A stretch of 64,000 nt of DNA, from NCBI GenBank assembly GCA_017506865.1, contig JAFCMP010000081.1, positions 124,001-188,000 of the forward strand. The letters are read 5' to 3'. The stretch comes from Tribonema minus. Lineage: Eukaryota > Sar > Xanthophyceae > Tribonematales > Tribonemataceae. Of the stretch, positions 25,182 to 62,600 are shown one piece after another. Position 1 is the stretch's first letter. Each line of letters opens with the position of its first letter. The position numbers were made by a program, and so were the translations under genes. Under the pieces are notes generated by a model. The model was not told the origin of the DNA and ran no database searches. It was given only the letters and a program-made list of their open reading frames with translations.

Positions 25182-27717
25182 TCACTCCTTGCCGAAGCCC
25201 GTGCGCAGCTCGAGCTCAATGACCTCGGCGAGCTTCGCGCGCAGCGTCTCGCGGTCGCCGTACGGCGGCAGGTCGAGGCGGTTGAAGCACGTGTGCGCGA
25301 CGGGGTACGCGCCCTCGCCATATGCGGGCGCGGGGAGCGCGGCGAGCGTGAACAGGCGCACCTCGCCGTCGACGCCCTGCAGCTCGCGGAAGCCGCCGAG
25401 GGGGACGCGCGACGTGCCCGTGACGAACTGCAGGAGGCGCGCGCGCGTGGGCTGGTCAAACTCGCGCACCACGTCCCAGAACCAGCGCACGAGGCGGTGC
25501 GTGGGGCGCAGCGTGCCAAGGAGCGCCGTGTGCGCGGCCCTGCGAGGGGGGGGGGGGACAGGGGGGGGGGGGCGATGGTTAGGTGTTGAATCAGGGGTCA
25601 GGCGAATGCAACACGCCGCCGCGCCGGCGGAGGATGTGATGGCAGCAGCGTGGGCGCACCGATCGCACAAAGCTGCTGCAGAGTGCGCAGTGAGTGGGCA
25701 TTTACGCACACGACAGGGAGGCCTCATGCCAACGCTAGGTTTTGGCGCTGCCGCGCAGCAGTCATCGACGTCGTCAGCAACGGCATCGAGCTCGCGCAGC
25801 GGAGCGCTGCAACAGATTGAGCGCGCTGCAACGCTCCGAGCACTGCAACATTCTGAACGCAGTCACGCACCAGTCGTCGACGTCGATGGCGTCGACGTCG
25901 ATGGCGTCGACGTCGATGGCGTCGAGCCCGCACAGCGGAGCACTGCAACAGAGTGAGCGCTGCAACACGTCAAACAACAGTGGAGCGCTGCCACGCACCA
26001 GTCGTCGACGTCGATGGCGTCGAGCCCGCACAGCAGCAGCTCCAGCTCCTGCGGGTCGAAGACGACCAGCAGACCCGGGGGTATCACCTCGTAGAACCCG
26101 GAGAGCATCGCGGCGAGCTGCGGGGAGATGCGGTCCAGCAACTTGAACTTGGTCGAGATCTGCGCGCACAAAGACAGGGTGAGGGTACAGGTCAGAAGGG
26201 CAAGAGGAGCGCATCATGCGGACGGTACTTCTGTAACTGTGACTGGCTCCATGGCGTGGCATGAAAGTGGATGAGCAAGAGTCTGCTAGCTGGTTTACTG
26301 TCGCTGTTCGCAACCTGTCGCAGCGCAAATCCTAACCCTAACCCTAATTCGACGCCCATCTTCACACATGGCGCGTCTCTCTCTCTCCTCTGGGTGCTCT
26401 CTTCCGCTTCAAAGCTAACTCAAGTCATACATGCAGCCTGACCCTAAGCCTGACTCAACTCCCATCATTACGCACTTTGCAGGTCTCTCTCCTCTGAGTG
26501 CTCTCTTCCGCTGCAAAGCTAACCCCAAGTCATGCTCGCAGTTAGTTACCCCTACTCCCACGCCTACCCCTAGCCCCCCCTAACCCTAACCCTGGTTAAC
26601 GCTGCGCACCTCGCAGAACTCGTGCTTGTTGGCGTCTGTCACCAGTATGTCGCGGCCGCCGGGCTTGAGCTCCACCACTTGGTAGCGCTCGCGGCCCTTG
26701 GCAGCGTGTCCGCTCTCCTCCACCGTCGTGAAGTCCAGGCTCAGCACCTAGTCAGAACAAGGGATAGGGGGGGGGCGGGGGGTGTTTAAATCAGAAATGC
26801 GGTTTGGGTTAAAGGTCGGGAAGGGGGAGCAGGGGGGGTCAGTTGTACCCGTGCCCCCCTTGACCACAGATTCTGTGCAGCCCCGACACCCTTGATAATG
26901 ATAAGCCTGACAAGCTGGCCCGAGGCTGCGTGCGTCCTTCTGAGCCTGTCAGGATCACAGTGAAAACCGTAATCTGCACAGCTCCGTGTCAATGGCGGTG
27001 CCCTGTGGCCAATCGCCTCTGCCGTCATGGACTCCTGACAGAGGGCGAGCACACCAAAGAGCAGCGCTGGATGTTAAGCGTGTTGCTGTGCGGCCTAACC
27101 CTAGCCATAGTGTCGTCTTTTGCGGCCTTACCCCGACCCTAACTCTGACATCGTGTGGCAGCTGGCGCCACGCCGCCGCTGCTTACGCAAACGGGCAAGG
27201 CGTCACCGATTGCCTTAGCGCGAGGATCGCTGTTAGGGTTGCAGTCAGGATGAGCGCTCGAAACGAGGCATCAGGGGCCAAACTTTTGGCAGTTGCCATG
27301 AAGCAATCGTGTGCTGCACGCTGCCGGCCGCGGCTGGTGACAGCGGCGCGGCGGCAAGCCATAACCCTCACTCTAACCCTAAGCGTGCCGCACAAAGCAA
27401 CGCAAGGCTTCAACTTCAACATGAGGAGATACAGCATGATGAGCCGCGCAGCGCGCCGCGCACCTCGACGTTTTGATGCCCCCGCAGCCACTGAAGGTTC
27501 TCTGCCAGCTTGCGGTCGACAAACTTCAAGTCACGGTGCGTCACCGGCACGCCGAGGAGGTGCTTGTACAGCGGTCGGCTCAGGTGCACTGGCAGTGACT
27601 TCTCCTCCTGCGAGCGCGCGTTATGGGGGAAGGGGGGCACAGCAGCAGCAGCAGTAGAGCGCAACATGAGCAAACACACAGGTACCAGGTGGGCAAGTCC
27701 AGGAGTTTGGTTAAGGT

Positions 27718-27756
<39 letters not shown>

Positions 27757-29177
27757 GGTATAGCATGAGCAAAAGCACAGCTGCCAGGTAGGCACTTGAT
27801 GTTGCAGTGAGGGGGACGCAGAGCGCTGCTGGAGGGCCGCCTGCAGATCACAGTGATAATCAAGCAAGTCTGAGTCGTGCGCGCGATTCGCAAATCAAGT
27901 CTGAGTCATGCCCGCGACTGCAGGGGGAATGCACAAAGGCTGTCCCATCAACAATAAGTGCACGTGGCCGCTGTTTGAGAGCACAGCCCCAACCCTACCC
28001 CTACCTCTAACCCCAACCCTACCAATGGGCATTTCGCCAGCGCGCACCAGCATGGCCTTGCGGAGGACGCGCCCGGCGAAACGGTACATGTTATGCAGTG
28101 CCCCCCCCCCCCCCCCCCTCCCGCGCTTTCAAAGCCAGGAAAGCACCATGCGTGCCACCCTAGCCCTAACCCTACCCCTACTTGTGAGCATGTCGCCGGC
28201 GCTCACCAGCATGGACTTGCCGAGGAAGCGCCCGGCGCAGCGGTATGCGTTATGCAGTGCGCCCCCCCGTCTCGCGCTTTCAGAAGCCAGAGAACCTCCC
28301 TGCACCACATCCTAGCCCTAACCCTACATATGGGCAGTGCGGCAGCGCTCACCAGCATGGCCTGGCCGAGGCCACCCGGCAAAGCGACACGCGTTATGCA
28401 GTGCGCCCCCCCCCCCCCCCCCCCTGCCGCGCTTGGGAACCACCACGTGCCATCCTAACCCTAGCCCCAACCCTAACCCTACATATGGGCAGTGCGACAG
28501 TGCTCACCAGCATGGCCTTGCCGAGGAAGCGCCCTGCGAAGCGGTACGCGCCCTGCAGCGTGCCGAACGCGCGTGCGGCCGCCGCAAACGGCGCGAGCCC
28601 CGCCGCCGTCGCCGGGTTGATGGTGTACGTCATGTGGTCTGTCTGCGCGTGCGCAAAGAGGCCGAGGGCGGGCTCGAAGAGCGCGTTGGCCACCAGCTCG
28701 AACCACTCGCGCCCGACGCCGCCAGCATCGATGGCGCTCTCGCCGATAAACCTGCGCAGCAAGACAACAAAAAACAGCGAGCGGGGGGGGGGGGGAGGGG
28801 TGAGGGGTGAGCACGTTGCCATGCCTGTGGATGAATGTCAGGGCAGAATACATGTGCACGCATACTCCTGAACAGCGCTCAGAGCCTGAACAGCGCTTAC
28901 AGCGAGAAGAGAACAAGCAGTGCGCGCGGCGAGCCTCGGCAGACTAACCCTAACCCTGGGGTTGCGGCGGCACAGCGCCAAAGGCAAAGCGCTCTCTCTC
29001 TCTCCATGCTAAAGGCCAAAAGCGGCAGTAAGGGAGTGGGGAAGGGGGGGGCGTCACCTGATGCGCAGTGGGCGCCGCAGCTGCGCCGTGTCCATGGCCG
29101 CAAACGCGCGCGCGCTAGACTCCAGCAGCGCCGCCCGTGACACCTCCATCACGCGCGCGCTGGGCCAGCCGCCATCC

Positions 29178-29211
<34 letters not shown>

Positions 29212-32200
29212 GCGCCGCGCCGGGGACCAGGCGCCAGAACTGTCCCGTGGCCGCGCCGGCGCTCTGCCGCGGCGCGTGCGGCTGGTGCCACGACTGCTGC
29301 CACGCCTGGCGTTGCTGAAGCTGCGCCTCCTCGTCGAAGCGGTCGCTGCAGTTGCTGCCGGTCGTCGCGGGCGTTGCGACGCCTGCGCGGGAACGGGGGG
29401 GAGAAGGGGGGGGGGGGGGGTTAGGTTTAGGGTTAGGGTTAGGGTAGGGCTGCGTCAGGCGTCGCACGCTCTTTAGGGTTGGGCAGCCGAACCGACTCCA
29501 CTGCTGCATACCGGAGAGGCCGCTCTGCACCGCGGCAGCAGACAGAGTGTTTGCTGCAGCAGCGTACACAGCCGCTGCTGCCGCTGCTGCATTCGGCAGC
29601 ACCGTCTGAGACCAGCAGAAGTGCGCCCCAGGAGTGCGGCTGTTCACGCCCGTGGCGCGCAGCAGGCACTCACGCTTAGGGTCAGGCGTAGAAACCAGCG
29701 ATGCTTTTGCCGCTGCTCACGTGCTGCGCAGCGTAAGTCGCCCCTACCCCGTCGGAAGCAGCACTGTTCCTCACGTGCACCAATTCAGCAGCTTTGTCGC
29801 ACACGCAGCGCACATGCCCCCTAGACCTGAACCAGATGCAGCCCTCACCTGGTGGCAGACGCGCGGGGAGAGGCGGCACCGCATCCACCTCCGCATGCGC
29901 TGCCGCCGCGCCGCCGCCGCCGCCGCCACCGCCGTCCGCCGCGCTCAGCGCGCGCAGCTGGCGCCGCAGCCACGCTCGCTTCGCCTCAAACGGCAGGCTC
30001 GCCACAACGCCGAGAGCGTCCGCGGTAATAGCACCGGAGGCTGCGCCGCTGCCGCCGCCGCCGCCGCCGCCGCTGCCTCCGCCGCTGCCTCCGCCGCCCT
30101 TGAGCGTCTCCACGAGCCGCTGCATGTCGGCGAGGTCCTCCTTTAGGTCGGAGCCGCGCACCCACTCGAGCTCGCCGCCGGGCAGCAGGCGCCGCAGCCA
30201 CGCTCCGCTTGCGGACTGCGTCGTCGGCGGCGGCGGCAGCGGCGGCGGCGCAGGGGCGTGCAAGAGGGGTTAGGGGGTTAGGGTTAGCTTTGTGTGTGAG
30301 GTTTGGGTTGGGACTGGAAGCGCCCTGCTGGCCGCGTTTTGCGCGTATAGGTGTGCGCGTGCCCAACGTGAACTTCGCGTGTTCTGTATGTGGACTTCTT
30401 GTATACTCACTGCGGACAACCGCTCACGGCATCACCGACTCCGTCGTCCAGCGCTGCAAATCACGAGCCACGTGCACGCTGCCAACAAAAGTCGCAGAAC
30501 TCGCCTCGCCTAATTTAACCCTGATGCTAACCCCAAGCGCCGCTTCATGACATTGCTCGGGGACTTGCTCCACCTTGGCTGGGAGTCGGCGAGGGCCGCA
30601 GGTGCGACCGATAGTCAGAGCTAGAACTCGTGCGCGCAAACTTCAAACCACTCAAGTGCTGAGTGAAACCCGCAAGCTCACCTGCACGATTCGCGCCGCG
30701 GCTGCGGATGGCAGCTGCGACGACGCAGCAGCGCCGCCATCCCTCTCGGGCCCCGCGTAACTGTAAAACTGCAACCGCCGCTGCTGCTCGCTGCCGCTAT
30801 CGCCGCCGCCGTGCGCATCCGCGCCGTCCTCCAACGCTGCCGCCGCCGCCACCGGCAACGGCTCGCCTGGCTCAACGCGTGCTGCCGGCGCTGCCGCGGC
30901 CATGACCTCCTCCGCCGGCCGCCACACCACCTCCCCCGAGCGGTTGATGCTGCGCACCAGGCGCCCGCCGCCGCCGCCGCCGCCGCCCTGCAGCGCCCCC
31001 AGCTCCACGTCCACGGCGCTCGGCAGCGCCGCAGAGCACTGCCACATGGCGTGCGCGTGCGGAATGGTGAGGAGCGGTTGCGCCGCCGCCGCCGCCGCGG
31101 CAGCGGCCGCCGCGTCGCCGCCGCCGAGCGCCGCGGCGGCGGCGGCAGTGGCGCTGTTGCTCTCCCAGGAGACGGCGGTGACGGCGGAGGCCGCGCTGGG
31201 GTCGTCTACGGTGCAGTGCGCGTAGCGCGCGCGCAGGTACGCGTGGACGCAGCCCTGCAGCTCGCCACGCCAGGCGAGCCACGAGTGGCGGCGCAGGTCG
31301 CGCGCGAGCCACGCCGCCATGAGCACGCGCGCAAAGCCGAGGACGTACATCTGCGTATGTACATGCGTGCGGGGGGGGGAAGGGGGGGTGGGGGTGTGAG
31401 GGGGTGGAGTGGGGTGGGGGGGTGGGGCGGGGAGGCGGGGCGCGTGCACAGAAATGGGCCATGTTGCAATATGGCACGACGGAACTTGTGACTATCATAC
31501 GCGCGCACCTGCATAATTTTCTAAAAGGCTAAGCAGCAGCGCTCACCGGAAGCGTGGCCAGCCTTGCGATGCGTGACCGACGCCGCGCGCACGCGTGCTT
31601 CCTACACACGCGGCCGGTCCAGCGATGGACGGCCGCAGGCGTGCACGCTTACCTGTGTACTTATATGGCTTACATACTTGCATACCCTCAGTAGTGGCTG
31701 CAGCGCGCGACGCACCTGCGTGGCGACGACAGACTCGCTCACGTACGCGAGCGCAATGTGCTGCAGCAGCACTCAACACACGCGCAGCCTGGGCGCGCAC
31801 TGTCACATATGTACATTCCATCCGCAGCTACAGCACGCAACGCAACGTACCTGCGCGGCGATGGCGGGCTCGCTCACATGCGCGAGCGCCACGTGCTGCA
31901 GCAGCACTCAACACACGCGCGGCCAGTCTAGCAACGGAGGGCTACGCACGCAACGCAACGCACCTGCGCGGCGATGGCGGGCTCACTGACGTGCGCTAGC
32001 GCAATGTGCTGCGCGCCTGTTGCGAGCGCGGCGAGGAACGCCGCCAGCAGCGACCACTCGGCCAGGTACAGCGGGCCGAGGCGCAGGGGCGTCCACAGGC
32101 GCAGCACCACCACCGCCGCAAACATGAGCACGCAGACCCCCAGCGTCAGCACCAGGGACACCTGCGGGGGGGGGGGGGGGGGGGTGACGACGGGGGGTTG

Positions 32201-35200
32201 GGGTCGGGATCTGAGTTAGGGTTGAAGTTGAAGTTTGGGTAAGATCAGGTCACAGGGCAGCGGGAATACGAGTCTGAGGAAGGAAAGGCGTCAGCACCAG
32301 GGATGCCTGCAGTGTCAGGGCTCAGAGGTCAGGGTCTGAGTCAGGATCTGAATCAGGGCCAAAGTTGAAGTGTGGGGAAGATCAGGTCGCAGCAGAACAT
32401 GTGTCTGAGGAAGGAATAACACGGTAAGATCAGCATGCGGCGGTCCTTATCCTAACCCTAACCTAACCCTAAGAGTGCAGGAATGAGGGCATGCGATCAT
32501 GCGGCAGCGGAAACACACGCTTGGGACCCCCCCTGTTATTCGCGGCTCTTGCGCCCGTGCTGAGCATCGCAAGGTGCGGTACGTGGTGACAACGCTCGGC
32601 GCACTAGCAGCGTAGCGCCGCCGCGCGCAGTGCGCGAGGCTCCCGTGCTACACGGCCGCTCCACTATGCAACACACACCAGAGCACACAGGAAAGCGTCA
32701 CCACTGTTCCCTTCAGACAAGATCACAGCTAATGCACACACCAACACTAAAAAAAACGCAACTCTGCACGCCCGCGCTGATAACCTGATTCATTCCCGCC
32801 TTCATGGCGCATCCGAGTTGGAAGCTCGACTGCGTCCGCGCAGCTCGCCATACGTACATGGCTGCTGAGACCGCGTCTATCACCATCGTGTCTCAGACGC
32901 CGCTGGGGACGACGTTGGTGCAGTCCGATGTGCTCGTCGAAAGTGCGGTGACGCATGCCTTGCAGGCTTTGAGTCAAACAGCTGTGGACGCATCGGTGAG
33001 TAATCACTAAGCACTCTAAAGGCTAAACGAGGGCCAGGACTCGGCCAATGCTTAAGCACTCTAAAGGCTAAACGAGGGCCAGATCTCGGCCAATGCTTAT
33101 GACCCCTCGACTGCGCAGTGATTACTCTAAAGGCTAACCGAGGGCCAGGACTTGGCCAATGCTTAAGCACTCCAAAGGCTAAACGAGGGCCAGGACTCGG
33201 CCAATGCTTAAAACCCCTCGACTGCGCAGTGATTACTCACCGATGCGTCCACAGCTGTCAAAGCGTGCAAGGCATGCGTCACCGCACTTTCGACGAGCAC
33301 ATCGGACTTCACCAACATAGTCCCCAGCGGCGTCTGAGACACGATGGTGATAGACGCGGTCTCAGCAGCCAAGTACGTATGGCGAGCTGCGCGGACGCAG
33401 TCGAGCTTCCAACTCGGATGCGCCATGAAGGCGCACCCCCCTGCGTTGCATTGCAGCACGTCTGATTTGGGGCCGAACAAGGGGTTGTACGTGCCTGGCA
33501 GAGACAAGTGCTAAGCGACATGCCCCGAAGCAAAATTTATTGCTGTGTCTCACCGCTGGTCTGCGCCAGCGCCCCGGTGTCCAGGCCGTGCCAGATGAGA
33601 GAAAGGAGGAACAACTGCAGCATACCCCCAAGCCGCTTTGTGGCCGCCGTCGCCGTCGCCATCATCTGGACCGCCCCGCCAGCAGTTGTTTGGCTATTTA
33701 TTCTCGCGAATAAACTTAACTTTTGAATTTGAACAACACCAGTTGGCAAGGGTTTTTTACACTTATGACAACGCTCAGCTCAAAACGCTCAGCGCACCTG
33801 CAGCGCGACGCCGGTGCGCGCGGCGCACAAGTCCTCCGTGGTGCACACTACCCACAGCAGCATGTCCCACGTCATGAGGATGGCAAAGGCGGCGCACAGG
33901 CGCCACGCGGGCCGCCCCACCTGAGCGTTGCGCAGCAGCAACAGCGGCAGCAGCAGCAGTCAGCAGCAGCAGCAGCAGCCAGCAGCAGAGGCAGGACATC
34001 CTATAGCATGCCAAAGTCATCTGCGGAGTGGCAGCAGTGAGGGCTTGGATGCGGGGGGAGCGAGAAGTGTTTAAACTTAACCATGAAGCACAGCTGCGGG
34101 AACGCGCGCCCCACTTGATGCTTCAACTTGTACTTTAACCGCCACTCGTACAACCTAAGCGACAGGGCATCAGTGGAGTGGAATCCGTCGGCGCATGACC
34201 ACTCCAACTTCACCAGCAGAACGCAACCGATGTGAACTTCAACTGTGGACTCACCGCCTTGCAGGCGGCAGGCGGCTCCGGCGAGTTGAGGTAGTCCGCG
34301 CGCGCGCCTAGGCCCACCCACAGTGAGCTGCTGATGAGCCACGTGCCGCACGCGTACATGGCCGCGCAGAACGACGCCGTCGTCACCAGCCAGAAGAACG
34401 CGTTGCGCGCCAGCTGCAGCACGTGAGAGGGGGCGCGCGGGTGTGAGGGGGGGGGAACACGACGGTACACATGTAATTGGGAAGGGATAGAGTACGCACG
34501 CAGGTGTGCGAAGAAGAAAGCGTTGGGCGCCAGCTGCTGACATAAATGGGGGGGAGCGGCCATGAGGGGGGGGGGGAGGGGTCGGGGCGGAACGGCACCA
34601 TCGTCACACACTTGGAGAATGCACTGTAAAAGCGCCGGTTGCAAGGGCACGCAGCCCTACTGCGTGCAGGCAAGCAGGCACCATTTGTGCACTCACCACA
34701 GAGTACAGCATGTACGCCGACAGCTCCTTCCCGGCGGCGCCCTCGTCCTCCGTGAGCTGGTGCGGCGTCCACAGGCGGAACGACGCCGCGGCGCCCGCAA
34801 ACATCATGTTGATGAACACGGCGCGGCGCACGGCGGCGAGGCCGAGTAGCGATTCCGCAAGGAAGGACGCAAAGTACAGGAGGGCGGCACACAGGCCGAC
34901 CACGAGGTCGATGAAGAGGACCTCCTGGAAGAACTCTATCTGGGGGTTGGGGAGGCGCTCGAAGAAGTGGACGCCGAGGATGACGATCGTCGGGAGGGTG
35001 AGGACGCAGAAGTTGAAGATGAACGGGCTGCACGCGGGGGCGGGGGGGGGGGGGGGGGGGGGGGGGAGGGAGCGCCATGAATGATTAGTCAAATAAAGCG
35101 GATGGGTAGGGGGGTGGGGGTGGGGGATGGAGGGAGCGCCACGGTCATTCAGTGATCTTAAGTCAAGGCGCAAGGGGGTTAGGGTTAGGATGAGGGGTTA

Positions 35201-36207
35201 GGGTTAGGGTTGACAGGGCACAACAAGCGCCCAAGGATAGCAGTACAGTGACTGCGCCGTCAAGTCGCCGCCCTGACAAGCACTTCTGCACACACACCAC
35301 ACATGGAGAGCCGAGGTGGCGTACGAACGATTTTGTACATGCCCCCCACGCCCCTCTCTGAATGCATTGCATACCTGCCCACCCCCCAACGCATACCACG
35401 CTGCTGTGCGCGCACTTTTGTGAGAAGGGTCATACTGAAATGGGAATTCTGGGAGTACATCCACTACATACCCCCCTCCCCCCAGAAATACACACCTGCT
35501 CGCCCCACAACGCAAACATACCCCCCTGCTCTGTGCGCACTCACGAGGGGAAGGTCGCACTGGGATGGGAGATCTGGGCGTACATCCACTACATACATAC
35601 CGCCCTTCTGTCCGCGCACTCACGTGAGGATGGTCGTACTGGGATGGGAGATCTGAGAGTACATCCACTCCGGCACGGGGGCCTGGCCATCCGCGCTGCG
35701 GTAGATGCCCATGGTCGTGACGAGGATGAGGACATCGTCCAGGATGTGGCGGTTGTACGTCAGGTACAGCACCGTGATGGCCAGCATGTAGAAGTTGAGC
35801 ATCACCGAGGCGTACAGCTGCGCGCACGCGCGGACAATGAGGGGGGAGGGGGGCGGGGGGGGAGTGAGCGTTGCTGTAATCTGGAACCCTAACGGGAAGC
35901 GTGGTGGAGAGGGCGGTGTCGGTAGCTAAAATCAAGCTAGCACTCATGGGGCGTGGCAAGCGCACACACAAAAGAGAGTGCGGTGCACACACATGCAGTC
36001 GTATACCCCGATGTGGTGTGATGGAGCGGAGGCACCAAAGTCCTCCACGGAGCTGCGCATGGGTGGCATGTCTAAGCTGAGACAAACGTTCCAACAGCCT
36101 GAACATTTGAGGCAACGCCGACCCCCCCGTCAGTTGTCGCTTGTAATGTGGCACTAGCTGCAGGAAAGCACAGCAGCAGCGTATCTCAGATTCATCGCCA
36201 GCACCAC

Positions 36208-36245
<38 letters not shown>

Positions 36246-46976: not shown

Positions 46977-47002
46977 ACCTAACCCTAACCCTAACCCTGA
47001 CC
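46977..47002. repeat. Interstitial telomere-type tract
   Basis: Four CCCTAA units, the last degenerate. Confidence 0.9.
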
Positions 47003-47289: not shown

Positions 47290-47700
47290 ATTGTGTGCGC
47301 ACTGTTCAGATGGGAGGCCACGCCAGCCATTACGACGAGCCGGACATCCTGTCGTGATTCACATATCAGCATCGCAGATAGCTGTACATCCTGTCCCATG
47401 ATGCATACGTCATCATCGCACATTCGCCCGTGTGCGCTGTTCAGGTGGAGGCCGCGCCAGCCTTTGCGGCATCATCACCGCACACAGCCGTACATCCTTT
47501 CATGATGTATCATCGTGCTCTATATATATGGAAACGATTCAAAAGATCGTCGAGCATATATATTGTATAGCATCATCGCACATAGCCGTATCTAGCATCA
47601 TCGCACATTGCCGTACGTCCTCCCATGATGCATACATCATCATTGCACATTTGCCCGTGTGCGCTGTTCAGGTGGAGGCTGCGCCAGCCTTTGCGGTGAG
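47290..47700 (+). repeat. Three tandem copies of an acceptor-plus-exon start (VEAAPAFA)
   Basis: GTGTGCGCTGTTCAGGTGGA-type sequence, ending in GCCAGCCTTTGCG or close to it, occurs at about 47296-47333, 47430-47470 and 47657-47696. Only the last is followed by a good GTGAGC donor. Between them CATCATCGCACAT-like units are also repeated. Confidence 0.85.
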
Positions 47701-47754
47701 CCAGCACAGCCATCATGCCGTCGTGCTGGACAGCGGCATTCTCTCTGTCGCCGC

Positions 47755-47980
47755 GCCGCCACCCCCCAGAGCCGAGCCGCAGCACCGGCAGGTATGCATG
47801 TACCTAACCCTAATTCTAACCCTACTTAAAAGTCTCCACCCATTGCTGGTTCTCGACTGTGACGTCTATGCTGCTGTGCCTATCACTGCTCCCCCAGAGC
47901 CGAGCCACAGCACCGGCAGGTAGGTCTTGTACCTAACCCTAACCCTAACCCTACTTAAGCCGCAGCACCGGCAGGCACTA
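47755..47980 (+). repeat. Duplicated 22-bp mini-exon candidate with telomere-type tracts
   Basis: CAG|AGCCGAGCC...CACCGGCAG|GTA occurs at about 47769-47790 and 47899-47920, identical but for one base, each with a full acceptor and donor and each followed by ACCTAACCCTAA tracts. A third partial copy (CCGCAGCACCGGCAG) is at about 47960. Confidence 0.85.
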
Positions 47981-48630: not shown

Positions 48631-48678
48631 TTAGGGTTAAGGTTACTGTTAGGGTTAGGGTTAGAGTTAGGGTTGGGG
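48631..48678. repeat. Interstitial TTAGGG tract
   Basis: About six TTAGGG-like units, reading TTAGGG on the coding strand, opposite to the tract at 46977. Confidence 0.9.
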
Positions 48679-49206: not shown

Positions 49207-49660
49207 CGTGCATGCATGACCAAGCGGCACGCGCATGGAGGATGGCAGGATGTTGCAGCTGGTCCTTAGGTTTAGGGCTAACCCTAACCCTGACTTCCTA
49301 ACCTGAACTCACCAGATCTAAAAGCCAAACATGGGCCAGTGACTCTGATGTCAAGCCCGCCGCAAACCCTAACCCTAATGACCAGGCGGTGCCCGCCATG
49401 AAGGAGGGCTGACTATAACCATGACTTGAACCTGACCCTCAACCTGCCGCATACACTAGTCAAGTGGACTGTTGTCGGGGTGGGGGTTGTCTTGTTTGAC
49501 ACTGATTCCAGTTCCGGCCTGGGGCGTGCTGCGCTGAGCTGCCGTGCCGACTGTAACGCCGCAAATGCTACGTGGTGATGATCAGGCGGCGCTGATGTCA
49601 AGCCCGTTGCAAACCCTAGCCCTAATCACCAGGTGGCACGCGCCATGGAGGGCTGACCCT
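49207..49660 (+). repeat. Four degenerate upstream copies of the 5' edge of the exon at 49845
   Basis: The acceptor and first codons (GATCAGGCGGCACGCGCCAT) recur in degenerate form at about 49212, 49378, 49568 and 49628 before the genuine copy at 49840. Each copy is separated by CCCTAA or TTAGGG tracts. Confidence 0.85.
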
Positions 49661-49677
49661 AAACCTGACACTCAGCC

Positions 49678-49706
49678 TTAGGGTTAGGGTTAGGGTTAGG
49701 GTTAGG
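49678..49706. repeat. Interstitial TTAGGG tract
   Basis: Four perfect TTAGGG units directly after the last degenerate copy of the exon edge. Confidence 0.95.
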
Positions 49707-49844
49707 AACGCTCCTCACAAGCCGGTCATTGCTTGCCCGGTTTGATGCTGACTCCATTTCCGTCCCTCAAGCAAGACCATAGGGCGAGCTGCGCTGCGCT
49801 GCAACGCTGATCTTAACGCCTCAAATGCTAATGGTGATGATCAG

Positions 49845-52800
49845 GCGGCACGCGCCATGGAGGAGGGCTGGACGTCACAGCTGGTGGACTTTGTCAAGGC
49901 GCACGGGCTGGAGCGCGCACTCGTTCCGGTGCACGCGCGCCTGGCTAAGGTGCGCGGTTTGCGTCAGTGTGCAACTTTGAAGTTTGAACGCAACTGCCAC
50001 TTGAGATGAGGGTTGATTGCGTGAGTGTTGGGAGTAGGGTTTGATATGGTGCTCGCGCAATGTTAGGGTTTGACGGTGCGTGCGCACTGTTATAGGGTGT
50101 AATATCGCGCGCAGAGCGTGGCTCATTCTAGCGCACCCGTGTGCTGCTCTATGGTGAAACCATCAGGTGCGCAGGCGCGTGTGCTCAAGGTCACTTTTAC
50201 TGTGTGTGCTCGGTGCACACGCGCCACTTTGCCCATGCAGCAGCGCTACCGCAGACTGCCATCAACCCAAACCCTAACCCTGACCATCGCAAGCAGCACT
50301 CGTAGAGGAGCATGATCAGTAGGGTATGATCACGGTGGTGCTTCTTTGAGCTGAGGCGTGAACGTAGTGTTCGTTGCAGGGTTGGGGTCAGGGTGAGGGT
50401 TACCACGTCTCGCCATGTGAGTGGTGTGCAGCCGAAGTCTGTGCACCACACTTGTGCTCTGATACCTTGCGAAATGACCCGTTTGCACCACTTCACACGC
50501 GTGAGGTTAGGGTTAGGGTGAGTACTTCGGAAGTATATCGCGTGCTGTGCTCAATCTGAATTTCTGCGCGCGCTTTGCGACCTGCCCCGTGCGCTGCAGA
50601 TGTGCATGAACTTCACACTCCAGCGACAGCGCTCAGCAAGGTGCGTACGCCATCACACGTCCATCAAAATCGCAGCTTTGCATGCCGTCGCCGCTATGCC
50701 GCGTTCGTTGTCCGTGAGCAGTCTTCGGTCTCCATGTAGAGGCTAGTGCTGGCGCCTGTGCGCTGCGGCGCAGCTTGGGTGCACTTCTGCTGACCAGTAG
50801 GAGCGTCGCGCTTTGCAGTGCTGGATGGTGACACTTCGGCCCCAGCAGTTAAGCGTGCGACATTGCTGTGCGTAAGGAGCGAGTTATTTACGTTTTTCTG
50901 CTATAATGCACAGCTGATGGTATCCAGCTCAGGTCAAGGTTAAGGTGCACTTGTCGCAGCTGTGGATGACTGCAGGCAACTCCGGCACCTCTGAGTAGAA
51001 GCGCAAGTTACGCTTGCGGTTCTTTTTGTATACACACCAAAGGCATGCGCATTGGCGCTAATGTCGTATTGAGCATAGCACAGGCAAGGTGCGCGGTCTC
51101 TAACTCCCTCCAGCGCACGAGCATTCTGCGGCCCAGCATTGGTGCCAGTGGATGAAAAGGCAATGGCCGTCATTAGGGAAAGTGTCTGAGGAAGTGTCAG
51201 GATTGATAAAAAAAGTGTCTGGGTGAGTGTCAGGGCTGAGTAGGGTAACGGTGTCGTCGGGTGATGGTCAGGACAAATGGGGGCGTAGGGCCAGGGTTAG
51301 GGTGAGGGTTTGGCTGACCCTAACCCCAACCCTAAGGATCAGAGCTGATGTGGATTTCTTCATATTGACTCACTTCAAGCTGACCCTGTTGTGGCACCGA
51401 GCATCGATGAGTGCCGCCTCAGCCATATGGCACATGCTCAGCGTCATACACAGGGTAAGGTTATAAGGGTCAAAGTGTTTGGGTTTAGGGTTAGAGTTAG
51501 GTTGAACCACCCTGGACGCCGTGTCTGTGCTGCAGGGAACGTGCGTGGTGGCTGTGGCGGGATCTGACGTTTGCACGCAGCAAACTTCAACATGAGGATG
51601 GGCAAGACGGGCCCACGGCCATTGCGACCTACGCCAAGGAACAAAGGTGGGGTGTCCACATTACTGTAACACATTGTTCCTCTTGAAGTTGGACCTCACA
51701 CACTCATGCAACACCCAGGAACGACTGCAAAGTTGTTGACTCGGCCCCCTATCTCAATGTCTGCATTAGCAGCCGTTGTGATACGCTCCTTGTGAATTAT
51801 TCATTGCATCGCCCAGCAGCGCTCACATGTGGCTTCAGCCAATTCACACTTCACAAGGTGACACTCCCGCTGCGCAGTAACTTGCGTTTTATATTCAAAG
51901 CGCCCACTCATGAGCCTTCGCTGCTGCATGCGCACGGAGAATTCCTCTTGCACTCCTGCGCTACATAACCTTTACCCTATCCCTAACCCCAACCCTAACT
52001 TAACCCTAACCCTGACCTTTTTCCTAACCTTGCAGTCGCTGCAAGCACGCATCTCGCATGGCTCTGTATGCAGTCACTGCACAGCAGCACAGCTCGCAGG
52101 CGTTCTCAGCCGTGCTACACCGTCTGACGCGTCCTGATGTGGTATCAGCAGCCATTCCGCTATGCTCCTTGCTTGCCCAGCACGTGACCCCACCAAGTCA
52201 CGTGTCAGCGCTCACCAAACTGCACGCAGTGACGCTCCCGCAGTGCAGATGCTTGTATTTATTTAAGAGAGCCTGCCCGTGGTGCCACTGACAGTGCTGC
52301 TGCGCACCTGTTGAGGCGATCCTAACCCTAACCCTAACCCCAACCTCAACGCATCCCCTCGCAACATTCACTTGCAGTCACTGCAACGCGGCACAGCGTG
52401 CAGGCATTTCCTCATGACCCTGTGTCCTGCATCCCGTACTGTGCAGCGTGACTTTGCTCGCGGAAGTGTGCGCGAGGCACGAGAGCGCGGTCGTGCATGC
52501 GCGCCTGCGCCGCTGGCGGACGCTGTGCGTGCAAGAAAAGGTCAGCACGGCTCAGCAACAGCCTGCGTGCGTGCGCACGTGCATGCTGTGTAGTGTGCAT
52601 CAGTGGATGTATCAGTGGCATCGCCCCGCAACACCACGCGTCTGCTGCTGTTTCAGCGACGCTGGCTGTTGACAGGGTGCTGTATAGCAGCGGACTGCGC
52701 TGCTTTCGTGACCAATGCCGCATGCTCACATATCAGGATAAGGCTGCAGGAATCATAACTGGTGTGTAGCAAGAATACACGGTCCTAACGCTAATCCTAA

Positions 52801-55800
52801 CCCTAACTTTGACCTAACATAACCTCACACGGCGCTGTGAGCTGCTGGTGCACCGCTCCAACGGTGCAGCGGTGGCCACCTCGCGTGGGTAATTTTCTTC
52901 AGGGTTACATAAGGGTTAGAGTTAGGATTGGGGATAGGTTAGGGTAAGGGTTAGCTAAACCTTTCCTTCACAACATGCACAGGACAGCAGCAATGCAGTC
53001 CAGCCACCTGAGCGCGCTGCCAATGCCCATCCTTACATCTTCTCACCCCGGCACGTCCACTTCAACTTCACCTGCAGACACAGCGGTCAACGGCGGCGCG
53101 CCGCGCAGCCGCGCACGTGATCATGTCAGTCATGCCACTTCATTGCTCAGCTCCCGGAGCGCTGCCAATACTTCAACTTCAAACCTCGGCATGTCAACTT
53201 GAACTCCGCCTGCAGACACAGCGGTCGGCGGCGGCGCGCCGCGCAGCCGCGCACGTTATCGTGTCGGCGCTCGTGCGCTGGCGCTGCGAGCGCGCGCGCG
53301 CGTTGCGGGCGGCGCGCGCGGCGCTGCTCGCGCAGCGGCGCAGCAGCGCGGAGCGCGCCAAACAGCAGGTATGTATCAGGTCAGGGCTTGGGTATGGGTT
53401 CAGGTTTAGGGTTGAGGTAGCGGCAAGCCGCTGAGACTGCGCCAGCGGTGGCACCCGAGTGCAGCTTTCGCGCTACGATACGCGCAGCAGCGCGGAGCGC
53501 ACCAAGCAGCGGGTGCGTATTGAGCTAGGAATCCAATGGGTATGGGTTCAGGTTCAGGGTTGAGGTACCGACGAGCCGCTGAGACTGCGCCAGCGATGGC
53601 ATCGGAGCGCAGCTTCCACGACGCGTCTGCCCTTCCTGGTTACCGGCGCGTTTGCGCGGAAAACTGTTTATGGCAGGGAAGACTTGCGAATGTTCTTCGC
53701 CTGCATCGAGCTGGTGAGCTGCCCAGGCAAGCGCGTCTCGAACTGACTTTGCTGACACAGCACCTCCGTACTGTTGCGGTTTCCATCGACACGTGGCGCT
53801 CCCTCCTGCTGACACATGGCGCTCTCTCAGCGCACACCTGTTCCTCGGTGCTCAGTCGCCGCGAGTGCTGCACCGCGGCTGCACTCCGAGGCCTCGTACA
53901 CATGTGATCTGTGACTGTGCAAGCGGTGCTAACGCGTGATTTGGACACTGACTCTAACCCTAACCCTAATTGTGACGTCGCGCAGGCCATGGCAGCGGTG
54001 CTCCAGATGGAGGAGCAGCGGCAGGAGGACATCAAAGAGGTGAAGCTTAACTCTAACCCTTGCCCTGCCTAAACCCACCCCTAAACCCTGAGCTGCTGGC
54101 ATGCCGTGTGCCAATCAACACGCGTGTCAGGCTGCGATGCCGAAGATGCCTGTGAGCTCAAGGCTAGGCTAATAATTATATTGGGCTAGGGCTTGGTTAA
54201 GGGCTGACTGCGCTGCGATACTCCGCTTTTCATACTATCCATATACTGAAATATCACCAATTATATCAGTCATGATTTTTTGTCAGCACCGATGCCGCAA
54301 GCGCCTGCCAGGCGATGTGCGCGGTCTCTGTGTTTGATGCTGCAGTGCTCAGTATTCAGTGCTCTGTACGAGTGATGCAGAACAGGTGACGGCGATGGCT
54401 GCTTGTCGCAGATTTGTCACGTTGTACGACAGCTATGGAGCTGTGAAGTCACCTACTCACATGACCTCACCCACGTGAGACAGCAAGAAATCTTGTCAGG
54501 TGCTAGGCAATCACTGAGCAGCTCAGGGCACTGTGTGTATATATGTATAGCTCTCGACCATGCATGCCTGTGCGCCTCGCACTGTACCAGCGGTGACCGT
54601 TGATGAGCGCTGCTGCCAGCGTCGCAGATTATGGCAGGGCGCACCCTTAGGGTTAGAAAACCTAACCCTTTTCCTAACCCTAAGATGTCTTACGTACATG
54701 CCTACACATGGCATCCGTCTGCAGGTAGATATGCATTCCAGGACTCATCAGTCGACTCATCAACATACTCATCCACTCATTCATGCATTCGCCCGCGTAT
54801 CGTCGCACCGCGTCGCACTTGTGTCCTGACACGGCAATTGACTCACTCACATACTCGTTTACTCGGTCATGTTGCTGCTGCCAGGCGGCCCGCATCCTGC
54901 GCAGCCGGCGCAAGTACCAGCACCGGTGAGATGATTTCAGCTTGAACCCTGACGCCATCCGCAACGCTTATGCTAGCTCAAATCCTGAGCACCTGCGCTC
55001 GTCTCATTGTGAATCTTTAAGTGGGTAAGCCTAATCTCAACCTCAACAGCCGTCTCTGCGGTGATTGCAAAGCCTAGGTCAGTCGTCACATGACCCTCAC
55101 TCCAACTCCAATCTAAGCCCTGCAGTGCTGACTCTAGGATTATCGCGTGGGGCTTTCAGACCAGAAATCAAGTCTATGAGCACAGCATCGCACTGGTGGA
55201 ATGACTATAGTTGTAACCCTGACGCTATCCCTAGCCCTATTGCTAACCCTAATCGTAAGCACATGTACTCGTCTCAATTGTCAACCTTCAAGTGAATGGT
55301 CCTGATCTCGGCCTCAAGCGCCGTGTCTGCGGCTATCACTTTACTTTCACCTCAACCCAACCCTGTACCCTGTAGTCGTATACTTCGAAGTATTAGGGTT
55401 AGGGCGAGGGTTAGCCTTGTCGGTTTTGGCAAGGTGATTGGGGTTTGAGTTAGGATGTGAAAAGGTGCGTATCGATGTCGCTGCCTGTCTATCCGCAGTC
55501 TGTTTTTGTCTCGCATACTCCGAGTGTGATGCTCGCATTCCCACCATTTGCCGCAGTGCGCGCACCTTACCCTAACCCTCGCCTTAACTTCAACCCTAAA
55601 GACAGACACACTTAACGTGCGCTTGATGTGCAACACCGCAAATTGGAGCACCTACACACCAAGTGGCAGACTGACTTGTAGAGTGTGGCACAGTCAGGAT
55701 TAACCTCCAGCGACCCTCAACAAGACCCTCACACCACTGCTGAGCACTGCTTGGGCTCGTTGCCATCATTGTATATGGCTGAGGCGTGGGCTCACACTGC

Positions 55801-58800
55801 TGTTCTGGCCTCATAGACTTGTTTTATTCTCTACACACAGCGAAAGTGGACTGCACCGTGCAGCAGGCGTGCTGCACCCCACACGTGTGCCGTCAGGCGC
55901 AGTGACGAGTCACTCACTTACTCAATTACTCGCTCGGGTCATCACTCACCTGCATACATACGTGCTGCCCCCCTTCAAATTTGTGCTGTCGTCGCTGCTC
56001 AAACCACCATCCCCCTTTCACGCCGTGTCCCAGAACGGCTCAGCAACGTCCCTCACCCTCCCAGTCACTCGCTCCCTCACGCACTCACTTGCATACATGA
56101 TGATGCGCGCCCCCAAGAGAGTGCGCTGTTGTTATCGCTCACGTTGCCGTCCACTTTCCTGCGCCGTGTCACAGAACGGACTGCGCGCAGCTGCTGCAGG
56201 CCCAGTGGCGGCGACACCAGGTGCGTGCATCGCACGGCGGGCTGGCGACTTGTACAACTTCCGTGTTTGTGTGAAGTAGGGAGTTCAACTTCAAGTTTCC
56301 AGGTCTCCAGGACTCAGCTGTGTCGCAGAATCACACGGGTGGTCAAATGTTGCGCACAGCAGTATTGCACAAGAAGTGTACATGCCTAACCGCGGCGTAC
56401 CCTTGCTGTTCTGCATACGCAGCAGAAGCAATGCAAATCTAGTACATGATGGGTGCAGTGTGGGTACACAAAACCATCGAGTGGTTTGAAATGGTCTGCG
56501 TACCCACACTTTACGACACCCTGTTGAACTGACTGATTGCGGATTGCTTGGGGCTAGGGTGATGGTCAGGTTTCAAGACTAGGGTCATTAATGCACCCAT
56601 GTGATGACAAACTGAGGGGAAATTCAAGTTTGGAGGCACCATTCAGAAGTCTTGGTGCCTGCTGAAGCACGTGCACATGAGCACACAAATAGTAGAGCTT
56701 CACCTTCACAAACTCGATTCAATCAGCCTGCCTGGGCATCATTATCACACGCATGAGCCTCTAGACGCACGAACCCACGAACCGGCATGGTCGACCAACG
56801 GAAATGCAAGTTCAGGGGTGCAAGTACAAAGCTTCAAGTAGTCCATAGCAAGCCAATGTGTTCATGCTGCTCACGCACACACGTCAGCACAAGAACCAAC
56901 AATGTCTCTTCCAAAGTCATGTTGAGATACCCCGCATACCCCCCTCGCTGCTGCCGCCGCCGCTGCCACCGCCGCAGACGCGCGCACGCTTGCTGCGCCG
57001 AGCCGAGACGGAGGCCGCGGCGCGCGCGCTGCGGCGGCGCACGCGCAATGAGGAGCTCTGGCACGACGTCCTCCGCGCGCCCATGCAGCTGCGGCTGCAG
57101 CGCTGGCTCAATGTCGCGGCGGTGGCGGCGGCGGCCAAGCACCGCGCCGCAGCGGCGCTCGACCGGCGGCGCTACCGGCAGGAGATCGCTGCGGTGCTCG
57201 CTGCGCAGGTCAGCGCTCAGCTCTGCGGTGTTTGACGTGCTCACGTGCATCAGTGCTTTGACCATTGCTGGGTGCTGTCCCCCCCCCCCTCAAAGAAAAG
57301 GGGGGTTGCGACAAGAGCTGGCTGTGCGTTGACACCCAAAGTCGGCAGAAGCGGGGCAGGCTGGCCATGCATGTGAGCGTTCCTGAGAGAGCAACATCAC
57401 CTCCTTGCATGCCACACAGCTCAGCGAGGACAGAACGCCCGCTGCAACAACACGTGCGGTGCGCCTCAGCAACTTGAGCCAGCTGCCGCCGCTACTGTGA
57501 CAGTGTGCAGCAGTGCTCAGCGCAGCAACCTCCCATCTGTACACCCCCCACCCCCCTTGCGCCGCCGCTGCTGATCGCTGCAGACCGTCGCAGCGATCGA
57601 GCTGCAGCGGCGCTGGCGCGGCTTCTACGGGCGCTGGCAGTACCTGGAGACGCTGTGGCGCGTGCGCCGCCTGCAGGGGTGGGCGCGCGCGGCATTGTCG
57701 CGCTGGCAGCTGCAGAGCGAGATTGACGCCAGGTACGTGCGTTCTGACCTTCGGACCGTTGCTGAGCATTGACTTTAGCAGCTTCAGGTTGGCGTTAAGG
57801 GAAAGGTTTGGTTAGGGGTAGGCTACAGCATTAAGCTTAGCATAACCCCCGGCCTGCAGGGCTGGGCGCGCTTGGCGCTGTACATGAGCGAGAGCGCGCA
57901 GTGCCACGACAACGTGCATCTTGCACGTCGTTGACGCAGGGTGCTGCAGCGGCAGCGGCACGACCGCGCGGCCGCAGAGGACGGCAGCGCTCATTTTCAC
58001 ACAGTACATAACTACAGACACGCACGTGAGTCGTATCATTACAATCCGCAGCACTCGACGCCATCACAAGCGCATGCACATCTCTATTCCTCTGTGCACT
58101 GCTGCCGCAGGGTGACCGAGCGGCGGCGGCGCGAACGCGCGGCCGCGGAAGAGCGTGCCCGGCAGCGGTGCGCGCTGCTCGATGCGCACGCCAGGCGCCT
58201 GCAGCGCTGGGGGCGCCGCTGCCTGCTGCGCGGCTGCCTGCGCCGCAGGTTCGGCCTGCGCGCGGAGCGCATGCGCGCTGCGCGGTTCGCCAGGTGGGTT
58301 TTCCACTGCTAAGCAGGCGCAACGCGTGTGTATGTGTACTTGTACATACGCTGCATGTGTGCATCGAAAAAACTATCGATACACACACACTGCTTGCTGT
58401 CGAAATTGTCTTTGTTCAAGTTGGTAGAAGTTATTGGGTAGTAGTAGGTATAGCTGTTGTCGCCAGCAGCGTCAACACGCGCTTGTTGATGAAGAAGTCA
58501 CGATTCGCAGGCCACCGCGCAGCACACTGCAGGCTTATCGCACCCAACATCTCACAAGATGACTCATGCTGCAAGGAATACCAACCTACCCCTGCTGTTA
58601 TGGCGCGTCATTTCAATGTCTCCAACATCAACATCTCCGTTCCTTCAACGCCTGCTGTCGCGCCGTTGCCGTGCTGCCGTGCTAGAACGCGGCTGCTGAC
58701 CGCCATCCTCATTCAGCAGCACACAGCATGGCGCTTGAGGGAGTTCCTCCTCCCAGGTATGCCGCTTCATATCTCCTCAAGTAGGGTTAGGGCTATATTT

Positions 58801-59572
58801 GGGACCATCATCATGGGTCAACATCCGCTGGAGCATGTGCGGCCATCTCATGATCTTCCCCCTGTCGGTGCGCATATGACCAGCGTGATGCTACTTGTAT
58901 GCTGCATGGCCCGCTTTGCAGTTCCTCCTCCCAAGTACGCCCATGGTCTCAGCTCCTCAAGTAGGGCTAGAAATGAATACGTACGTTTGGGTCCGTCATC
59001 ATGGCTCAGCATCCGCTGGAGGATGTGCGGCCATCTCTCATTGCTTTTGTTGCCGTAGGTGCAAATATGACCAGCGTTGCAGCGTGATGTCAACTCGTGT
59101 GCTGCATGGCCTGCTTTGCCGCCATTTGTTGCGTGCGCAGTGCTGCCTTCCGCTCGCCTCATGCTTGCCCCATGGCGCGCTTTACGCTTAGAGTGCCGTG
59201 CGCGCATGCGGCAGCACAAACGATACGCAACACCAGTGCACTGCGCAGGCGCGGTTGTTGGCAGAATTCCCCCCCGCCGTCTCCGCTCACGCTGCTGGCA
59301 TGCATGCTAACACGCATTTGATATTCACTCTCACGCTAGCCCTCTGCGCGCACAAGAAACTACTAACCCTAACCCTGCTTGCGGCTGTGTCCGCAGCGGA
59401 GCGCTGCCACCTCACGCACGCACTGCGGCCGCACGACGTCGCGGCGCGCGCCAGGGCCCAGTGCCGAGCGCTGCGCACCGACGTCAGCGATCAGCAGCCC
59501 GCGGCTTTTGGCAGAGCGCTCGCGCGGCAGGACGAGGAGCGCGTGGACGCCGGTGAGCACTGCTGCTGCTGC

Positions 59573-59615
<43 letters not shown>

Positions 59616-62600
59616 GCCGCTGTGTATGAGCATCGCTGCTGCTGCTGCTGCGAATGAGCACCGCTGCTGCTAGTGCTGCTGCTGCTGCTGCTGTGCGGCC
59701 GCTGCTGCTGCCAAGGCCGCTGCCGCTGCTGCCGCCGCCGCTGCTGCTGCTGCTGCTGCTGCTGCTGCAGGTGAGCAGCGCTGCTGTGATTTAGAGGCGG
59801 TCGCGAGCCCTGAGTCTGTGTTGGGGGGATTTGGCAATGATTGAGCGCTGTCCTGGCGATGACTGACCCTAGCCCCAACCCTAGGCGATGGCATCGTGCT
59901 CAGCGCCTGACTGCAGAGCGGTGCAACCGAAAAGTGCAGCAGGACCAAGCGGAGCACTGACACTGACCGGCATACGGTCACACCTTAGCCCTATGGCAGT
60001 GCAGCTGCACAGCATTCGCACAGCCCTGGCAAGAAAAAACTGCAGTGCTCAGCACGGCGGCGCTGGCGCTGCGGCACACGGAACATCTCACACATGCTTT
60101 TGAAACTTTTGAGCATCCCGCCAGCAAGGAGGACGGCGCACAACATTTCCGCATGCTGCGAGGCTGCAGCGCCTGAACGCGGGTGCGATGTTTCTCAAAG
60201 CACGGTGCGCCTTGTTTCCACGTTTGACCGTGCGTTTCAATGCACACACACACAGGCACCCCACCCCCTGTCTCCGCCCCACAATGCTGCAGCCGCCTGC
60301 TCGTGCATGTGCTGTGAGCGGCGAGCAGCGATGCACATGCATAGGAATAGGTGTATGATGTCACTGACGGCACCCCGTCCTGAGGAACCACTACTCGGAT
60401 CTGAAAGCGCCTGGCATAGCAACCTGTTGTTCTGCAACAGCCAAACTACTGACGGGCCCTCTTTGCCTGCTGCCGCGCCTGCGCCAAAACATATGCGTGC
60501 AAGCGCCTTGGCACAGTGACTCGGGCCTTGCAACAGCCAGACTCCTCAGTTCCTCACCAGATTCCATTCTGCGCCACCGCTGCCGCCCGCGGTGCTGACG
60601 CTGCAGCGGCTAGTGCGCGTGTGCTTAACACCAAAACGCGTACTTGAAACTGCCTCGACATAGCAGAACTCGGGCTGTGCAACAGCTAGACTCCTCAGTT
60701 CCTCACCAGATCCCATTCTCTGCCACCGCTGCCCCCCGCAGCGCTGACGCTGCAGCGGCTCGCGCGCGTGCGGCGCGAGCGGCGAGCGCTGACGCGCGCT
60801 CTGGCGGCGCGCGCGCGGCTGCGGCTGCAGCAGCGCGACGCCGTTCTGCGCGCGCGCCGCGACGCCGCCAGCGCCACCATTGCGCAGGCGTGGCGCGCAC
60901 GTCATCTGCGCTGCGAGGTGCGCAGCACGCTGAGCACTGTTTGCTGAGCGCTGTGACTTCCCTTGATTGAAGTGTCGATCCCCGTTGGTTGAAGTTCAGT
61001 GCGCGCCACCTGCGCTGCAAGGTGCGCGGCGCGCTTGCGTTGAGCACTGTCACGCTGAGCGCTGTGACTCCTGTTGATTGAAGTGTCAGTCCCCGTTGGT
61101 TGAAGTTCAGTGCATGTGCTCGGGTGGCGCGCCCCGCGCGGCGGCCGCGGTAGGTACCACGTGCATGTGCACTCTCAATGTTGTGGAGTGCCGCGGACGT
61201 ATGTGCTGTGCAGTAGCACTCATCGCCAGCGCCGCACAGCATCACGAGATGCATGTCACATGCTGAGTGATCAGTTCAGTGGCGCTGAACGCGATGCCAC
61301 CTGTGTGGACCAGAAAGCGCCTACCAAGTACATGTGCGTCAGCGGGCAGCAGCATTTACCCTGCACCGCCCTGCTGCACATGCGCTGCAGCTGTTGGCGC
61401 GAGTGACGCACATGTGCATGACATGACGCATGTATGCATGTGCGTATGCATCCTTGCAACGGGCAGCAGCGCTCACCCTACACCACCCCTGCCGCACATG
61501 CGCTGCAGCTGTCGGCGCGCGTTACGCACACGCGACTACGACGCGAGGACGCGGCAGCGCGTTGCCTGCAGCGCCTGTGCCGCCACATCGTGGGCGCGCG
61601 GCGCCTCAGGGACAGGTTTGCCGTGCGGCGGCTCATCATGGACCAGGTGCGTTTGTGGACAGCGCTCAGTTAGGATAAGGGGGTTAGCATTATGGTTGGC
61701 ATTAGGGTCAGGGTTGAATGACATGTAGGTTTGCCGTACGACGGCTCATCATGGACCAGGTGAACTGCGCAGTTAGGGTTAGGGTTGGCATTAGGTTTAG
61801 CATTACAGTTAGCATTAGGGTTAGGGTTAGGTGACATCCAGGTTTGCCATGCGGCGGCTCATTATGGACCAGGTGCATTCATGGACAATGTTTAGTTACC
61901 TTTTGGCTTAAATTAGGGGTAGGCAACCCCCCCTCCTCTCTTGCGGACAGCACATGTGCTTGCAGCAGCCCCTCACAGTGTAGATTTAACGCCAGGGTGG
62001 CAGGCTTGTGCCGCCAGGCGCTCGTGGTGGTGTGCTGACCAGACAGTGCAGTGGTCCAGTAGGGTGCCTGTTTAAGACGAACATGAGGTCAGGAGGAGAA
62101 CCTCAGTGTTGCAGATCAGCGCGCCGGGCCGCAACGTGGACGCCTGATGTACTGTGGATGTACTGCGAAGCCTCGGAGCAGAGCAGCGTGAGAGGATGCT
62201 TTCACGAGCACACAGGCTTGACCTTTAACACTCATGCTAAGGCACAGGCATATATATCGCCCCCCTTCCCCCCTCAGGCGTGCTCGACTTTCCACAGTCA
62301 GCTTAGGGTCCTGCGGCAGACAGCTCATGTGCTTGCAGCAGTAGCTGATAGTGCAGATGCAAGTATTTATGTGCATGCACGTCAGTCAATGACGATCAGC
62401 AGCACATCGCACGCCCACGCCCTTTTGATCTGAATGCGCGCAACTAACATGCCACATCATTATTAACAGCACAAAGTTTCCACAATCTGTTGCACTTAAA
62501 ATATGCCAACATCGCGCTGACACACTTGTCCACCAGGCGATAGCGCTGGCAGAGATGAGCGGCGCATCGGGCCTGATTGCGCGGTGGTACCGCAGGCAAC

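Follow-up and report, generated by a model that had tools for sequence, protein, structure and literature searches.

The stretch analysed here, called the window throughout, comprises 64,000 bp of the genome (158 Mb) of the yellow-green alga Tribonema minus (Xanthophyceae) at positions 124001-188000 of contig C81 (C-numbers denote contigs of the T. minus assembly and L-numbers sampled stretches or loci), and many of its introns carry partial copies of the adjoining exon ends. The copies lie in one or more minus-strand genes at about 25-38.7 kb, possibly a single gene, and in a plus-strand gene that extends from about 46 kb to past the window end. An earlier sequence-only reading had labelled the two HECT and IQ. 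A HECT domain is indeed encoded in the minus-strand region (E=1.3e-26); Pfam returned no match at all for two exons of the plus-strand gene, each in three frames, and the IQ label was not confirmed. For 799 residues of the HECT-gene reading Pfam likewise gave no match, and the annotated proteins offered one distant match to this gene and no close one; as read here, the possibly single gene joins hydrophobic, membrane-like segments to the HECT domain. The window also contains an aminoacylase-1 gene of four exons and three introns (40341-42663), the hand-spliced product of which is 100% identical over 454 amino acids to a T. minus protein. No duplicated pair was found in this gene by self-BLAST of the window, and the duplications do not affect every gene.

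Self-BLAST of the window (E<=1e-4) yielded 35 pairs, of which 32 were direct, and 27 of these 32 had offsets of 79-270 bp. All copies listed by the sequence-only reading were recovered as head-to-tail repeats of exon ends, including the series 27999/28158/28312/28454 at the donor 28508 and the one placed at 60540 against 60690, where the copy is real (60519 vs 60668) but the acceptor lies nearer 60742-60756. Further pairs at exon edges were found at 25905/26003, 34392/34512, 47364/47593, 47763/47891, 53338/53482, 57932/58103 and 60897/61001, and others touch no edge of the final gene model, such as 27640/27739, 32195/32332, 54920/55190, 58742/58920 and 61340/61457. Exon borders were taken from a home-made gene model trained on these data; exons shorter than 40 bp, exons with a coding score of 6 or less, and decoy exons recognized by rule were removed before counting, and introns longer than 2500 bp or shorter than 30 bp were excluded from the intron statistics.

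The analysis was extended to 264 kb, consisting of the window and 20 stretches of 10 kb, which were set at fixed coordinates on four contigs and are not a random draw from the genome; loci L001-L020 were excluded from the duplication statistics. As the sequence-only reading had proposed, intron segments matching the adjoining exon edge were counted against a control, for which one intron of another locus was used per edge, and 236 of 256 edges were examined after exclusion of introns <150 bp and exons <40 bp. Copies of the exon end were present in the adjoining intron at 56 of the 236 edges (31 donor and 25 acceptor) and in none of the 236 control introns. Two to five copies occurred at 30 edges, and 89 of 111 copies extended to within 3 bp of the junction. 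The first copy was located at a median of 146.5 bp from the exon end (interquartile range 130-183, n=56), with a median spacing of 147 bp between successive copies (n=55).

Throughout the sample, direct pairs far outnumbered inverted ones at offsets of up to 600 bp (181 vs 8), which supports the local tandem duplication that had been read from the window. In the 20 additional stretches direct-pair offsets peaked at 120-160 bp, and six of the 20 had no direct pair within 600 bp. Duplicated units were mostly 90-250 bp long with a peak near 145 bp, and about 18% of the sampled intron bases fell within detectable duplicated segments. Pair identities ranged from about 66 to 100%, as expected from the claim that the process recurs over time; identity was complete only in two short pairs (32 and 41 bp), and the differences elsewhere reached 34% and included indels. 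Introns with duplications were also longer than those without (median 868 bp, n=47, vs 466 bp, n=81), in agreement with the suggestion of intron growth. Among 16 contiguous duplications, 11 apparently shared 1-5 bp at the joint, as a raw count. Duplication rates differed strongly between loci (0 of 5000 permutations), and neither G/C runs nor GC content separated introns with duplications from those without.

Checks independent of the gene model gave the same picture. In locus L031 (contig C13), the eight exons of an HSP40 gene are defined by the annotated T. minus protein P0122, and this one annotated gene model skips all copies. All five clusters of L031 touch an exon edge, four spanning it and the fifth (4186-4282) ending exactly at it. 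Moreover, the whole genome was searched with Cpn60/TCP1, kinesin and actin proteins (73, 140 and 38 matches, 251 in total; cut-off for Cpn60 and kinesin E<=10), and the matches were screened by a fixed rule for partial exon-end copies, while a RuBisCO search with two matches was kept outside this count. Fifteen such copies were found (seven, seven and one, respectively) at 13 exon edges on 12 contigs, with one kinesin copy on C168 uncertain. All 15 lay on the expected side, acceptor copies upstream and donor copies downstream, and the sole pair on the other side was between two copies. The observation is confirmed as real and as occurring across the genome.

The copies decay at a neutral rate. 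In 81 parent-copy records at 50 edges, identity was about 0.90 in the exon part and 0.83-0.85 in the intron part, and mismatches in the exon part amounted to 8.6, 6.8 and 15.6% at codon positions 1, 2 and 3 (7.7% for positions 1 and 2 together). The decoy GT or AG was intact in 70 of 81 copies, so the decoy splice sites claimed by the sequence-only reading are indeed created, and since a neutral expectation of (1-0.077)^2 predicts about 69, their retention matches free decay. One record (L028 2943, offset 163) had no exon base aligned and was counted as a lost site. Considering nearest copies only, the site was intact in 45 of 50, and unit lengths showed no frame preference (16, 12 and 17 with remainders 0, 1 and 2 modulo 3). 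Both copies lay within called exons in only 3 of 190 pairs, and in each of these one of the exons is taken for a decoy, in two by rule and in the third (window 25871-25942) by eye. There were thus no clear exon-internal duplications in 40 kb of exon vs 64 clusters in 91 kb of intron, and from this scarcity duplications inside exons appear to be purged.

The sequence-only reading had further described the duplications as centred on splice junctions, which holds in part. Clusters contained an exon border in 52 of 90 cases, compared with 26.8 +/- 3.7 under circular shifts, and none of 1000 shifts was as high; this count omitted four clusters from L026 and L036, two stretches in which no exon was called. 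Under a stricter null, duplications were placed only where tolerable, and decay and detection were then simulated (simulated indel share 12% vs 12.4% observed). Given intron lengths of several hundred bp and units near 145 bp, a junction would be included in a third of placements in any case. The strongest alternative is uniform tandem duplication without junction preference, in which the conserved exon half keeps junction-spanning copies detectable for longer. Geometry alone would give 33.5% of clusters spanning a junction, and detection bias raises this to 39.9%; the observed share was 44 of 64 clusters in called introns (p ~3e-6 against 39.9%, clusters taken as independent). The excess persisted among clusters whose intron part was at least 85% identical (20 edge, 11 interior), and the 35596 cluster, read by hand, is a further edge case. 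We consider uniform duplication possible, although it is clearly the less probable account. As to what stands of the earlier description, interior duplications occur too, and exon sequence makes up only about a quarter of the unit (median 41 of 145 bp, n=45), possibly owing to a harmful effect of large decoys.

Several observations weigh against a junction hotspot and against the wider account of recurrent duplication given below. The ten youngest clusters (identity >=0.90) comprise four edge and six interior cases and hence show no junction excess, so that the hotspot may be partly an effect of retention or detection; of the six interior ones, two rest on matches of 30-32 bp and one lies within an inverted-repeat element. 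The binomial p-values assume independent clusters, although rates differ between loci as described above. Contiguity is imperfect, since four of the 16 contiguous duplications do not reach the full unit length and one has an 8-bp overlap. The gene model is error-prone: of the eight HSP40 exons it missed one and split one, it added four decoy exons, and it recovered two of the four aminoacylase exons. A HECT family search (51 matches, at the stricter E<=0.001) gave no edge copy under the fixed rule. As well, it is not clear that the copies closest to the exon are the younger ones (17 of 30 edges only, p=0.19), and a conveyor-belt order with the youngest copy beside the exon was rejected on this count. 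Taken together, exon borders are likely, but not proven, to be a local duplication hotspot; the junction excess is well supported overall and absent among the few youngest clusters. The coordinates of parents and copies are collected in Table 1.

Table 1. Exon ends and their copies; positions refer to the window, except for HSP40, where they refer to locus L031.
Feature	Position	Strand	Basis
Parent: donor end of HECT-gene exon 28508-28751	28459..28569	-	self-BLAST, gene model
Copy 1 of this end, intronic	28304..28414	-	self-BLAST
Copy 2 of this end	28158..28268	-	self-BLAST
Copy 3 of this end	27999..28109	-	self-BLAST
Parent: exon end (~25999) with donor	26003..26034	-	self-BLAST; boundary by eye
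Copy of exon end 26003-26034	25905..25936	-	self-BLAST; separate exon in gene model, decoy by eye
Parent: donor end of exon 31964-32161	31954..32037	-	self-BLAST
Copy of this end	31841..31924	-	self-BLAST, edge test
Copy of this end, decoy donor GT intact	31706..31789	-	alignment
Parent: acceptor end of exon 34255-34413	34392..34455	-	self-BLAST
Copy of this end, upstream in intron, AG intact	34512..34574	-	self-BLAST
Parent: donor end, donor ~35622 by eye (gene model: 35663)	35596..35684	-	self-BLAST, reading by eye
Copy of this end, GTGAGT retained by eye	35517..35605	-	reading by eye
Copy of this end, donor destroyed by eye	35392..35480	-	reading by eye
Parent: acceptor end of exon 37247-37474	37446..37593	-	self-BLAST
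Directly adjoining copy of this end, unit 147 bp	37593..37739	-	self-BLAST
Parent: acceptor end of exon 47672-47791	47593..47696	+	self-BLAST
Upstream copy of this end, AG intact	47364..47469	+	self-BLAST
Parent: donor end of exon 47672-47791	47763..47829	+	self-BLAST
Downstream copy of this end, GT intact	47891..47958	+	self-BLAST
Parent: acceptor end of exon 49845-49949	49837..49885 (self-BLAST span 49782-49885)	+	self-BLAST
Copy of this end, AG changed to AA	49216..49263	+	self-BLAST
Copy of this end, same intron	49345..49404	+	self-BLAST, edge test
Copy of this end, closest to exon	49592..49651	+	self-BLAST, edge test
Parent: acceptor end of exon 53222-53368	53163..53265	+	self-BLAST
Upstream copy of this end, AG intact	53024..53127	+	self-BLAST
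Parent: donor end of exon 53222-53368	53338..53467	+	self-BLAST
Downstream copy of this end, GT intact	53482..53615	+	self-BLAST
Parent: acceptor end of exon 58111-58293	58103..58152	+	self-BLAST
Upstream copy of this end, AG intact	57932..57981	+	self-BLAST
Parent: acceptor side of exon 60756-60917 (acceptor ~60742-60756)	60668..60770	+	self-BLAST
Upstream copy of this side	60519..60621	+	self-BLAST
Parent: donor end of exon 60756-60917	60897..61002	+	self-BLAST
Adjoining copy of this end, unit 104 bp	61001..61113	+	self-BLAST
Parent: donor end of exon 61572-61646	61613..61672	+	self-BLAST
Copy 1 of this end, end approximate	61727..61786	+	self-BLAST, edge test
Copy 2 of this end, GT intact	61839..61898	+	self-BLAST
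Copies of HSP40 donor ends	7744-7718; 6594-6502 and 6368-6348		P0122 exons
Copies of HSP40 donor ends	4961-4881 and 4690-4619; 4007-3921, 3846-3814 and 3571-3545		P0122 exons

The remaining explanations fare less well. The copies might be functional alternative splice sites or exon ends under selection, as most decoys are intact and the reading frame stays open in several copies. Retention nevertheless equals the neutral expectation, the mismatches by codon position fit a freely decaying copy, nearest-copy units show no preference of frame, and no copy is used in the annotated HSP40, all of which make selection improbable; constrained, mutually exclusive exons were rejected on the codon-position pattern and site retention. 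The Rogers model, in which a tandemly duplicated exonic AGGT segment gives birth to an intron, involves the same class of event. As we read its description in PMC4974935, the intron would begin with a copied start of the downstream exon and finish with a copied end of the upstream exon. The copies found here lie inside introns with intron flank and a splice site of their own, and because donor copies come with a donor and intron flank of their own, an existing intron was lengthened rather than born, which leaves this model very improbable. An assembly artefact could be suspected, since tandem repeats are hard to assemble and T. minus was omitted from a gene-cluster analysis because its assembly was judged insufficient (PMC12459048), but it was rejected as scarcely credible given the divergence of nearly all pairs and the copies seen at protein level, always on the expected side of the exon, on 12 further contigs. 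Mobile elements resembling introners, or splice junctions copied through RNA, would account for intronic copies with splice sites and are dismissed with equal confidence, because no exon end matched its one control intron of another locus and the copies stand head to tail with intron flank included.

Short tandem duplications are a known class, and patch-mediated duplications have reportedly been described in rice by Vaughn and Bennetzen. What is new in T. minus is the abundance, the narrow size and the splice-junction bias. According to PMC8355091, small tandem duplications are a known product of break fill-in and end joining (CST/Pol alpha-primase, non-homologous end joining). The T. minus copies resemble these in being direct and head to tail with no element involved, and may resemble them in having little or short microhomology at the joint; they differ in the peak near 145 bp, in the large share of intron bases occupied and in the bias to exon borders. 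In potato RdRp, an intron was gained by tandem duplication crossing the intron-exon boundary, and splice signals were copied in the same way (PMC4974935). That case was one event creating a new intron, whereas in T. minus the process is recurrent, existing introns are lengthened, and the annotated HSP40 protein, the one copy-bearing gene checked, is unchanged. Similarly, new intron positions in Drosophila were attributed to tandem duplication or sliding, with duplications including proto-splice sites, but these are few cases and concern intron creation within coding sequence instead of intron growth (PMC2891723). Introners (PMC9860276) also shape introns genome-wide, but as dispersed copies of one element, while the T. 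minus copies found are local. The earlier statement that no named mechanism has this signature was thus too strong, given the published fill-in duplications and the border-crossing duplication (PMC8355091, PMC4974935), although for the abundance and junction bias no comparable genome was found in the open-access literature searched.

Some other features were noticed. A 637-bp inverted repeat with arms 81% identical and internal 111-bp and 45-bp tandem repeats lies in a HECT-gene intron (window 32797-33433) and looks like a foldback or MITE-type (miniature inverted-repeat transposable element) structure. A 1.9-kb inverted pair (8405-10318 and 18632-20512, 80%) and a 0.7-kb direct pair (2938-3637 and 7371-8105, 88%) are perhaps transposon copies. 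Directly before an acceptor of the minus-strand gene, a long poly-C on the sense strand (32162-32185; poly-G on the plus strand) perhaps acts as pyrimidine tract. The same HECT exon was matched three times at equal scores on contigs C355 (L018, L019) and C551 (L020); two of these matches face opposite ways on a contig of 18.8 kb, which may be palindromic or mis-assembled. Telomere-like CCCTAACCC/GGGTTAGGG motifs occur on both strands, 92 times in the 264 kb, with 65 in the 91 kb called intron (for example, window 48631-48678, 49678-49706 and 52321-52345) and none in the 40 kb called exon. Nine of 23 sense CCCTAACCC motifs lie within 70 bp of an acceptor and possibly serve as branch site or pyrimidine tract. 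The association of duplications with these motifs (p=0.001 unstratified) was not significant within length strata (p=0.055 and 0.22), and for telomere-like intron repeats no lead was found in the open-access literature.

We favour, with a probability of roughly 0.8, the reading that introns in T. minus lengthen through short, repeatedly occurring head-to-tail tandem duplications with a hotspot at exon borders, exon-proximal splicing and neutral decay. Units of about 145 bp with 1-5 bp shared at many joints would be the expected trace of staggered breaks that were filled in and end-joined, or of a slip at replication. A unit that includes an exon-intron junction would yield one copy with the exon intact and a second one that ends up in the intron as a surplus exon end with its splice site. 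Provided that the original, exon-proximal site continues to be the one spliced, the mRNA would not change. Junction-spanning duplications would for this reason be tolerated and accumulate, decaying as neutral sequence, while those wholly inside exons would be purged; a local hotspot at exon borders would be added on top.

To our knowledge, intron lengthening independent of transposons is little documented. The length of 145 bp approximates that of a nucleosome core or of an Okazaki fragment, and either may underlie the size peak. A more far-reaching and rather doubtful proposal is that a chromatin- or replication-length ruler duplicates preferentially at exon borders, and that it could be the main engine of intron growth in T. 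minus and a permanent reservoir of extra splice sites from which new exons could arise. For gene annotation, systematic prediction errors are to be expected, and in several genes our home-made gene finder itself predicted decoy exons. Finally, intermediate states of many ages are preserved in this one genome, and therefore unit size, breakpoints, decoy neutrality and exon-proximal site choice become directly measurable.

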